Source: Pseudomonas putida (lineage in GTDB: Bacteria; Pseudomonadota; Gammaproteobacteria; Pseudomonadales; Pseudomonadaceae). Taken from it: DNA of 64,000 nucleotides. The position numbers and the translations under genes are program-made. Below, piece after piece: positions 44,184-46,949 of this stretch. The DNA lies in assembly GCA_029953615.1 (NCBI GenBank), contig CP124529.1, positions 3,224,501 to 3,288,500 on the forward strand, written 5' to 3'. The notes under the pieces are model-generated. The model was not told where the DNA came from, searched no databases, and was given only the letters and a program-made list of their open reading frames with translations. The first letter of the stretch is position 1, and each line of letters starts with the position of its first letter.

Positions 44184-44293
44184 TGTAGGAGCGGCCTTGT
44201 GTCGCGATGGGCTGCGCAGCAGCCCCGGCTATTGATGCTATTTCACAGAATTTAGGGCCGCTGCGCGCCCCATCGCGACACAAGGCCGCTCCT
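44184..44293. repeat. REP pair (class GTAGGAGCGGCCTTG), interrupted by the IS
   Basis: The distal copy runs ACACAAGGCCGCTCCT and is cut there. Its continuation, ACAAGGACCGCG, is found at 45563, on the far side of the IS110 element. Confidence 0.9.
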
Positions 44294-44500
44294 TGTATGT
44301 TGTGTCTGGCCTAGCGGGAGAGGTTATTCTCGTCGGGCTGAAGAAGCACTTCCGGGGAGGCCGATCGCTCCTGAAGGCAGGTATTGCCCCTGACCTTGTA
44401 TGTAGAGAGGCCCCCGCCTCATTGCCCACTGCGAAGAGTATCGAGAAGCCGACAAGTCGGACTTCGCATTACAAGGTTGCAGCAGCATGAAGTTCGAGGT
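44294..44500 (+). ncRNA. Putative bridge RNA of the IS110 element
   Basis: The leader holds two hairpin-centred loops. Loop 1: CGCTCCT (44366-44372) equals the left target half ending in the CT core (44287-44293). The hairpin GGCA/TGCC (44376-44388) follows, and then CCTTGTA (44394-44400), the complement of the right flank TACAAGG. Loop 2: AGAGTATC (44435-44442) equals the element's right end (45554-45561). The hairpin CCGA/TCGG (44449-44460) follows, and then TACAAGG (44470-44476), the complement of the left junction CCTTGTA (44291-44297). This is the target-loop and donor-loop order of IS621 bridge RNA. RNA ends are estimates. Confidence 0.75.
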
Positions 44501-44549
44501 CGGGGAACCGGAGGCCATTGTTACCTAACTCGCTTGGGAGAGGGAAGGA

Positions 44550-45545
44550 ATGAGTGTCTGGGTTGGCGTCGATATCGGCTCACGTACTTCGGTCGTTGGG
44601 GTGCGTAAAGATGGGCGTCCGGCCGGACAGTGGGATATCGCTCAAACCCCTGCAGGCCGTAAGGCTGCGGTGAAAAAGCTGCTGGCACTCAAACCCAAGT
44701 CGATCGTGATGGAGGCGACCGGAATCTATTACCTGGACTTGGCCCTTGAGCTACATGCGGCTGACCTCCCTGTATCCGTGATCAACCCCAAGAGCTTCCA
44801 CAATTTCGCCAAACTGATGCTGGTGAACAGCAAGACCGATGCAATAGATGCTCAACTGCTGTCCGAGTACGGCGAGCGTATGACACCGCGCTTGTGGACA
44901 CCTCCAAGCCTTGTGCAGCTTGAACTGAGGGCTCTGGGGCGACACATCAATCGTTTGGTGGGGCATCGTACAAGGGCGAAGAACGAACTGCATGCATTGC
45001 AGGCGACCGCTACAACCGTGTCGATGCTGATCGAGGATCAGGAGGAAGCGATTGCTTCACTGGATAATCGAATTGAGCGCTTTCGTAAGGCGGGCCGCGA
45101 GCTGGTCGCCCAGTGTCCGACGCTTACTCGGCAGTACAAGCAGCTGCTCGCAGGGCCTGGGATGGGAGAAGTCTCTGCACTTGCGGCATTGGCTGAACTG
45201 ACCATCCTTCCTCAAATGCTCAAGTCCTCGCAGGTAGCTCGCCACGCGGGTCTCGATGTTCGACAGACCCAATCGGGAACGAGCATTGATAAGCCCGGCA
45301 GACTCGGCAAAAGTGGGAATGCTTATCTACGGGCAGCCATGTACATGCCTGCCTTGACCGCAGTGCGCTGCGACCCTTATGCGAAGGCTTTTTACGAGTC
45401 GTTGGTCAACAGGGGCAAGAAGAAAATGCAGGCTATCGCTGCTGTCATGCGCAAGTACCTGACAGGCATCTGGGCATGTATGCGCGGGGATGAGCCATTT
45501 GATACGGCCAAGCTTTTCAGCTCTGAACACCTCAGAAAAGCTTGA
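44550..45545 (+). CDS. IS110-family transposase (DEDD recombinase)
   Basis: The 331-residue protein has the RuvC-like tetrad Asp8 (VGVDIGS), Glu55 (VMEATG), Asp97 and Asp100 (SKTDAIDAQ), a coiled linker (about 135-195), and the C-terminal Transposase_20 domain with GPGMGEVSALAALAEL and the conserved Ser242 in RQTQSGTSIDKPGR. These positions are close to those I recall for IS621. All catalytic residues are present and the frame is intact, so the element may be active. A strong Shine-Dalgarno sequence (GAGAGGGAAGG) precedes the ATG. Confidence 0.95.
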   Translation: MSVWVGVDIGSRTSVVGVRKDGRPAGQWDIAQTPAGRKAAVKKLLALKPKSIVMEATGIYYLDLALELHAADLPVSVINPKSFHNFAKLMLVNSKTDAIDAQLLSEYGERMTPRLWTPPSLVQLELRALGRHINRLVGHRTRAKNELHALQATATTVSMLIEDQEEAIASLDNRIERFRKAGRELVAQCPTLTRQYKQLLAGPGMGEVSALAALAELTILPQMLKSSQVARHAGLDVRQTQSGTSIDKPGRLGKSGNAYLRAAMYMPALTAVRCDPYAKAFYESLVNRGKKKMQAIAAVMRKYLTGIWACMRGDEPFDTAKLFSSEHLRKA

Positions 45546-45560
45546 CCGCCAACAGAGTAT

Positions 45561-46949
45561 CTACAAGGACCGCGTAGCCCTCAGGATCGGCAACTGGATG
45601 CCGAAAGTATTGAGCCCCGCTCCACTACGCACAAACACCTCCCCACCATGCATCAGCGCAATCGCCTTGACGATCGCCAACCCCAACCCATGGTTACCGC
45701 CCCCACTGTTGCTGCGTGCCGCATCCACCCGGTAGAAGCGTTCGAACAGCAACGGCAGGTGCGCATCGTCGATCGCCGGCCCCGGGTTGCTCACGGCGAT
45801 ACTGACCTGCTCCGGCCCGGCAGCGATCTGCACCTCGATCACCTGGTGCGGTGCAGTGTGCTGCACGGCGTTGTTCAGCAGGTTGATCAGCGCCCGGCGC
45901 AGTTGCGCCTTTTCGATGGGCGCCTGGGCATCGCCGTGCACGCTTACGCTGACCTGCGCGTCTTCCAGGATATAGTCCAGGTAGTCGAGGGTGGTTGCTA
46001 CTTCCTCGGCCAGCGAAGCCTGGGTCAGGGCGGTGGCTTTGCTGCCTTGGTCGGCGCTGGCCAGGAACAGCATGTCGTTGATGATACTGCGCAGGCGCTC
46101 CAGTTCCTCAAGGTTCGATTGCAGCACTTCGAAGTAGTGCTCGGCGCTGCGCCCGCGGGTCAGTGCCACCTGGGTCTGGCCGATCAGGTTGGTCAGTGGC
46201 GAGCGCAATTCGTGGGCGACGTCGGCGTTGAAGGCTTCGAGCCGTGTATAGGCCTGGCTGACCCGGTCCAGTGCGGCATTGAAGGCGCCAGCGAATTGGG
46301 CCAGCTCCGGTGCCAGGTCCTCAGTTTGCAGGCGCCCGTCCAGGCGTGGCGGGGCCAGCGCCTGGGCCTCGTTGGACAACGCCAGCAACGGGCGCAGGCC
46401 GATGCGTGCCACCCAGTAACCTAGCAGCGAGGCCAGCAGCACGCCGAGCACCGCCAGCCCGACAATCGCCACCAGCAGGCTGTGCTGGGCCTGCCAGAAG
46501 GTTTCGGTGTCGATGCCGATCAGAAAGCGCAGCGGCGGTCGCTCGCCCAGTGCCGGCAGCTCGCTGACCAGCACCTTGTAAGGGTAGAGGCGGTCGGGCA
46601 GGCGCAGGTCACGCATGCCCTGCGGGCCTTCGGCGAAGGCGCGGACCAGCTCGCTGGGGTGGCCGTATTCGTAGGCCGGGTCGCTGCTGACTACCCAGAA
46701 GCGGATGCGCTTGTCCTCCTCGCTGAGCAGGTTGAGCTTGTTGTTGATCTTGACCCAGTGCTCCGGGGTGCCGAAGCGGTTGAGGGTAGATTCGAGCACG
46801 CTGAAACGTGCATCCAGCTCGGCCTGCGGCAGCAAGTCGAGGCTGCGGTCGACCTGGCGGTACAGTGCCGAGCCGATCAGCAGGAACACGCCCAGCGCCA
46901 CCAGGATGAACAGTACCGACAGGCGCAGTGCGATGGAATTACCCCGCAC
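45561..46949 (-). CDS. Heavy-metal-type sensor histidine kinase (CopS/CusS-like)
   Basis: The GTG at 46949 (VRGNSIALRLSVLFILVALG) overlaps the response regulator by 11 bases and gives 462 residues. It has two membrane segments (about 8-30 and 155-180), a HAMP region, an H box with AHELRSPLTNLIGQTQVAL, an N box NLLNNAVQHT, and G boxes GNHGLGLAIVKAI. The length and periplasmic loop fit the CopS/CusS/IrlS group. The stop codon TAG uses bases of the REP and of the IS core; because the CT is repeated, the inserted IS leaves the protein unchanged. Confidence 0.9.
   Translation of the reverse strand: MRGNSIALRLSVLFILVALGVFLLIGSALYRQVDRSLDLLPQAELDARFSVLESTLNRFGTPEHWVKINNKLNLLSEEDKRIRFWVVSSDPAYEYGHPSELVRAFAEGPQGMRDLRLPDRLYPYKVLVSELPALGERPPLRFLIGIDTETFWQAQHSLLVAIVGLAVLGVLLASLLGYWVARIGLRPLLALSNEAQALAPPRLDGRLQTEDLAPELAQFAGAFNAALDRVSQAYTRLEAFNADVAHELRSPLTNLIGQTQVALTRGRSAEHYFEVLQSNLEELERLRSIINDMLFLASADQGSKATALTQASLAEEVATTLDYLDYILEDAQVSVSVHGDAQAPIEKAQLRRALINLLNNAVQHTAPHQVIEVQIAAGPEQVSIAVSNPGPAIDDAHLPLLFERFYRVDAARSNSGGGNHGLGLAIVKAIALMHGGEVFVRSGAGLNTFGIQLPILRATRSL

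Follow-up and report, generated by a model that had tools for sequence, protein, structure and literature searches.

The IS110-group element at 44294-45562 of the window (the whole stretch of 64,000 nucleotides of Pseudomonas putida DNA that was analysed; one CT core is counted in the element) is almost certainly an autonomous element of the IS621 type that carries a bridge RNA in its leader. The anatomy of this RNA, a covarying fold, the agreement of its guides with both target and donor, and the insertion sites of the element are established here. A sequence-only reading of this DNA had proposed an IS110/IS621-type bridge RNA, the targeting of REPs and agreement between guides and target, and these proposals are supported by the fold, the sites and a permutation of the left guides across relatives.

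The recombinase comprises 331 aa and is encoded at 44550-45545 (this and all features of the element given below lie on the + strand). DEDD_Tnp_IS110 and Transposase_20 domains are present, and in an alignment with IS621 the catalytic DEDD residues, as well as the Tnp-domain serine, are kept, D8, E55, D97, D100 and S242 aligning with the catalytic residues named for IS621. The protein scores above the cut-off of NCBIfam NF033542, 'IS110 family RNA-guided transposase', IS621 and ISCro4 were its sole matches among PDB sequences at E <= 0.001, and the scoring of 7996 candidates gave at least 874 clusters of related proteins at E <= 1e-40. Between the left end and the start of tnp lies a leader of 256 nt, placing the bridge RNA upstream of tnp and not downstream as in IS1111. 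An Rfam scan of the window gave no gathering-score match for the leader; the sole such match was a manganese (yybP-ykoY) riboswitch at 2166-2306 on the - strand (50.4 bits). DNA searches with the element yielded no match in E. coli genomes and, among plasmids, a single matching record, a Vibrio plasmid.

Eleven full-length matches to the element are present in its own genome (5.76 Mb, one contig). Four of these, including the copy in the window, are identical; a further copy differs by one substitution, and indels of one base, most of them located in the leader, are found in the other six. In copy L008, one base is inserted within tnp. In the window copy, one C of the target-loop basal stem is missing at 44409-44415 that is present in six sister copies.

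Alignment of the junctions of all genomic copies, which the sequence-only reading had asked for, placed all 11 in REPs at GGCCGCTCCT|TACA and none at unrelated sites. That reading had also predicted discrimination between REP classes, and this discrimination is real. Genome-wide, the patterns CGCTCCTACA and CGCTCCCACA, for which the second core base is the sole difference, occur at 253 and 1384 sites, respectively, and all 11 insertions fall into the rarer class and none into the commoner one (p 1.8e-9 under random choice). The window has 20 occurrences of GCTCCCACA and nine of GCTCCTACA, and there the classes differ in upstream bases too, with 15 of the 20 C-class sequences reading GCCCGCTCCC and seven of the nine T-class sequences reading GGCCGCTCCT (counted by eye). 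The T of the core is therefore the simplest cause of the choice of REP class, though other causes are possible, and the upstream bases perhaps help. For IS621, the published structures show the protein recognising the core T (PMC11208158).

The two loops of the bridge RNA, for target and donor, are covered by a match to covariance model R1 at 44350-44501, the model having been built from an alignment that itself includes the window sequence. Four guide strings had been named in the sequence-only reading, CGCTCCT, CCTTGTA, AGAGTATC and TACAAGG. All are present, once each, in the leader (44294-44549), starting at 44366, 44394, 44435 and 44470, and three were assigned correctly; CCTTGTA turned out to be mostly the 3' arm of an apical stem. 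When the leader was shuffled 5000 times with dinucleotides preserved, the single strings occurred in 1.6%, 1.2%, 0.5% and 0.8%, respectively, while CGCTCCT, AGAGTATC and TACAAG as an ordered trio were found in none (0/5000). The left target guide, rightly identified from CGCTCCT, is AUCGCUCCU at 44364-44372, in which CGCUCCU equals the CGCTC of the REP plus the CT core. It is followed by the target-loop apical stem, AAGGCAGG / CCUG-A-CCUU (44374-44397), and by the right target guide discussed below. In the donor loop the assignment of AGAGTATC, the right end plus core C, as left donor guide was likewise correct. This guide reads AGAGUAUC (44435-44442), that is, the right-end AGAGTAT with the C of the core, and the apical stem of the loop, GAAGCCGAC-AA-GUCGG-A-CUUC, follows at 44445-44465. 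The right donor guide, AU-U-ACAAG (44468-44475), would pair with CTTGTAT by flipping out one U, ATTACAAG being able to pair in the manner described for IS621. The earlier choice of TACAAGG for this guide was right, and its last G, G44476, fits the putative handshake position (44476-44477), as the complement of C44291 at target position 7; with this G assigned to the handshake, TACAAGG had been matched to the left junction rather than to the circle.

The two loops with central hairpins that had been proposed were recovered by RNAalifold on 14 aligned leaders, an analysis blind to the guides. The consensus comprises a basal stem in the target loop and one apical stem in each loop, that of the target loop within 44374-44397; both apical stems have a bulged A. 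Counting over 28 pairs, 99.5% of cells were paired and nine pairs showed double changes. None of 500 shuffles was as good, and slid versions of the fold reached at most 56% pairing. Seven of the nine doubly changed pairs are owed to the Vibrio plasmid element alone and two vary within Pseudomonas, one of them in six sequences and the other in G181. The counting covers the two internal-loop stem-loops, the 5' stem-loop lying outside the model. Against an exposure of the guides, which the sequence-only reading had expected of the fold, the unconstrained fold of the single sequence hides them, by 15 kcal/mol over the constrained fold, and the single-sequence leader fold is no more stable than shuffles (z -0.06).

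Single-sequence folding also gave an alternative helix, CCUUGU/ACAAGG, that joins the two loops. Such a helix, together with the structured tnp 5'-UTR of ISPpu9 and the regulation of tnp by two sRNAs in that element (PMC8450116), could speak for a leader structure that mainly controls translation of the transposase, as for the ISPpu9 5'-UTR, and does not serve targeting. We consider this extremely improbable. The agreement of guides with target and donor would be left unexplained, and although 99.1% of cells pair in the alternative helix, no pair in it is doubly changed; the helix may arise since the left end and the right donor guide must match. Translation control and targeting are, moreover, able to coexist.

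With the leader read as a bridge RNA, the right target guide had to be placed in another register than proposed. The sequence-only reading had taken CCTTGTA (44394-44400) as this guide, pairing over seven bases with TACAAGG or, by a U-G wobble, with TACAGGG. CCTTGTA is indeed present in the leader and is an exact match to the right flank of the window copy itself, and the three bases after TACA at the own sites are AGG in four cases and GGG in four more (TTG, TTC and CAG once each). It is, however, composed of the CCTT of the apical stem, the linker GU and one more base, with UGUAG next. In the apical stem the CCTT forms four pairs, two of them doubly changed, and CCTTGT is unchanged in 46 of the 62 tabulated copies, whose targets differ, as in G020, where left and right targets both do. 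TACAAGG is found at only 4 of 54 right flanks, and in the own genome it is not enriched at occupied sites, AGG following in 4/11 compared with 13 of 63 unoccupied GCCGCTCCTACA sites (Fisher p 0.26, no preference detectable; the free REPs are from the first 100 of 313 listed places, and the pattern also demanded a last base other than G). CCTTGTA also omits the core, which the right guide of IS621 includes in the published description. That CCTTGTA is the right target guide is thus very hard to maintain and we reject it; the wobble has no role.

By analogy with IS621, the right target guide is instead probably (U)GUAG at 44401-44405, which would pair with CTACA across the core. Among 54 right flanks, a U at guide position 12 meets A in 40/40 cases and a C meets G in 7/14, all seven failures coming from G644 (0/7). 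Position 13 agrees in 33/54, mostly C with G at a place where REPs are G-rich anyway, and agreement falls to 8/54 at position 14 and 7/54 at position 15. The T expected at position 13 from A44400 of the guide occurs at 2/11 own sites and 2/63 free REPs (Fisher p 0.10). The right flanks of group G213 read CTACAG in 4/4 copies and are absent from the right-flank table.

The flanks described so far are conserved, REPs share sequence and related recombinases share targets, so that conserved flanks alone are no proof of guidance by RNA: the recombinase protein could read the REP by itself, the guide-like strings being relics or chance. This is very improbable in view of the ordered guide trio, found in none of the shuffles, and of the RNA guidance shown by experiment for IS621 (PMC11208160), and it is further opposed by guides and targets that change together between groups. 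For the latter comparison a table of relatives was compiled from covariance-model, protein and DNA searches, holding 62 copies in 21 groups, some without both flanks; the covariance model matched in 15 of the 398 genomes searched in the genus and in 7 of the 369 searched in the class, the own genome being counted in both. The left guide ATCACTCCT goes with target CTCACTCCT (four copies of G213 and one of PfAR1), ATCGGTCCC with GCCGGTCCT (three copies of G020), ATCGCTGCT with GTTGCTGCT (one copy, G387) and CTTGAGCCT with ACAGAGCCT (one copy, G646). In G644, whose recombinase is 58% identical, the guide TCCCGACCT goes with target GCCCGACCT or TCCCGACCT in 6/6 readable copies. The G644 repeat (GTCGGGCTGAAGCCCGACCTACA) is palindromic too, with another sequence and in a different bacterial family, and recurs in several of the fetched flanks.

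Across 20 groups the left guides follow their targets. Over positions 3-7 the mean agreement is 4.61 of 5 compared with a permutation mean of 3.79, and none of 20000 permutations was as high (59 left flanks); as related groups are not independent, the permutation overstates the case and gives no clean probability. This count drops L071, which sits inside another copy, one copy of G131 at a contig end, and L137 of G644, the left end of which was not found; the positional counts over 60 flanks still include L071. Positions 8-9 of the guide are set by the search string and hence were not counted. For seven of eight guide classes the own targets are best or tied over positions 3-7; the exception is the Vibrio class, the target of which another guide fits better. 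Guide positions 1 and 2 do not follow the targets, agreeing in 5 and 19 of the 60 flanks. When they are added, still none of 20000 permutations is as good, although over positions 1-7 the targets of the commonest guide, ATCGCTCCT, agree better with CCCGCTCCT than with their own guide (5.69 vs 4.81, respectively) because positions 1 and 2 agree in so few flanks. The insertions of G213 went into ACTCCT in 4/4 cases and those of G020 into GGTCCT with the CT core in 3/3. Among the first 100 sites listed for each background, counted by eye, G213 has 56 ACTCCT, 7 GCTCCT, 7 ACTCCC and 30 GCTCCC, and G020 has 43 with the CT core, so that these insertions are consistent with the guides and are not discriminating by themselves.

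Several of the relatives have composite structures. In all four fetched G213 copies (L063-L066), the first right-end-like AGAGTATC is followed by an additional 3' part of tnp, truncated to about residues 195-331, and by another right end; the composite seems to have moved as a unit. In L075 (G131), tnp is split between two frames, and some 100 bases of the 3' end are repeated, which leads to a second right end. In L071 and L113 of G020, the leader and first codons of one copy run straight into a full element, the junction lying at CGGTCT, and these nested copies have two bridge RNA leaders 286 bases apart.

At the left junction of the window copy, the REP left half GGCCGCTC ends at 44291 and is followed by the CT core (44292-44293) and by the left end TGTATGTT (44294-44301) with a -10-like TATGTT at 44296-44301. 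At the other side, a -35-like TTGACC lies over the stop codon (45542-45547), and the right end CAGAGTAT with the second CT core (45553-45562) precedes the ACAAGG of the REP. The CT core is found at both ends in 11/11 own copies; for the relatives it was built into the search string, and its presence there is not counted. The sequence of the circle junction is TTGACC-N17-TATGTT. The 17-bp spacer is kept in 10 of the 11 relatives tried, the remaining one scoring best at 18. When integrated, the 11 copies offer this -10 a -35 that matches at 3/6 positions at best.

We infer transcription, RNA binding and catalysis from these features as follows. Excision would join the right end, with its -35 TTGACC, to the left end, with its -10 TATGTT, at the CT core and 17 bp apart, and the promoter so reconstituted at the circle junction would drive transcription of the bridge RNA from the leader. 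The recombinase would bind this RNA, the target loop of which would read the REP through its left guide AUCGCUCCU, with about CGCUCCU matching, and its short right guide UGUAG, both across the CT core. The donor loop would read the RE-LE junction with AGAGUAUC and AU-U-ACAAG, its next G being suited to the handshake with the target strand that is exchanged. The copies insert into CGCTCC-T-ACA REPs and not into the five-fold commoner CGCTCC-C-ACA REPs.

With 11 copies in one genome, and with relatives in which guide and target are changed jointly at one base or several, the element provides a natural test set for the reading of bridge RNAs. Of two REP classes that have CGCTCC and ACA in common but not the core T, one has received all 11 copies and the other none. 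The corrected location of the right target guide matters for any design from the present element. It is conceivable, though rather unlikely, that this IS110 lineage follows the REP families of its hosts and is in turn followed by them, and that the commoner CC-core class (1384 sites) is immune through its core change. If so, the left guide of the copies in each host would be fitted to one of the host's own CT-core repeat classes (CGCTCCT, CACTCCT, CGGTCC, CCCGACCT), and REP classes may spread partly by escape from IS110 insertion.

One of the closest known systems is IS621 from E. coli (8wt6 and related structures), with a homologous recombinase. As published for IS621 (PMC11208160; PMC11208158), the present element has a leader RNA with target and donor loops, a flipped A in each apical stem, a GU linker followed by the right guide, a CT core, a REP target and a promoter at the circle junction. 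Compared with the IS621 RNA, known to us by its published description, the REP sequence and the left guide are different and the distance between left and right target guides is longer. The Vibrio alginolyticus plasmid pVb1796 carries an element (L076) with leader DNA 74.6% identical over 13% of the query and the same fold with compensatory changes; it differs in a recombinase just 43% identical and in a target that fits its own guide less well than others do. In this element (L076:2470-3700) the leader RNA is far better conserved (74.6% at the DNA level) than the recombinase (43% at the protein level). Like ISPpu9 and ISPpu10 of P. putida KT2440, which were reported at one REP position in 7/7 copies each (Tobes and Pareja, 2006; PMC1525189), the present IS110 family element uses a single position in REPs; for ISPpu9, an antisense sRNA and a downstream sRNA have been described (PMC8450116). 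ISPpu10 and ISPa11 are REP-targeting Pseudomonas elements (PMC1525189). RNA-guided insertion into REPs is also shared with ISPa11 of P. aeruginosa, treated along with the natural retargeting of ISEc11/ISXne4 by Siddiquee (2024; PMC11187229); ISPa11 is of the IS1111 type, with its RNA downstream of tnp and subterminal inverted repeats, whereas the RNA of the present element lies upstream. A search of open-licence papers by title and the start of the abstract returned none plainly on this element. The sequence-only reading had regarded a bridge RNA in a REP-targeting Pseudomonas element as new. This was anticipated by Durrant et al. (2024; PMC11208160), who established bridge RNAs and presented predicted guides aligned with target and donor for ISPpu10 and for ISPa11. 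REP-targeting IS110 elements of Pseudomonas with predicted bridge RNAs have hence been known since 2024, and what is new is another such element.
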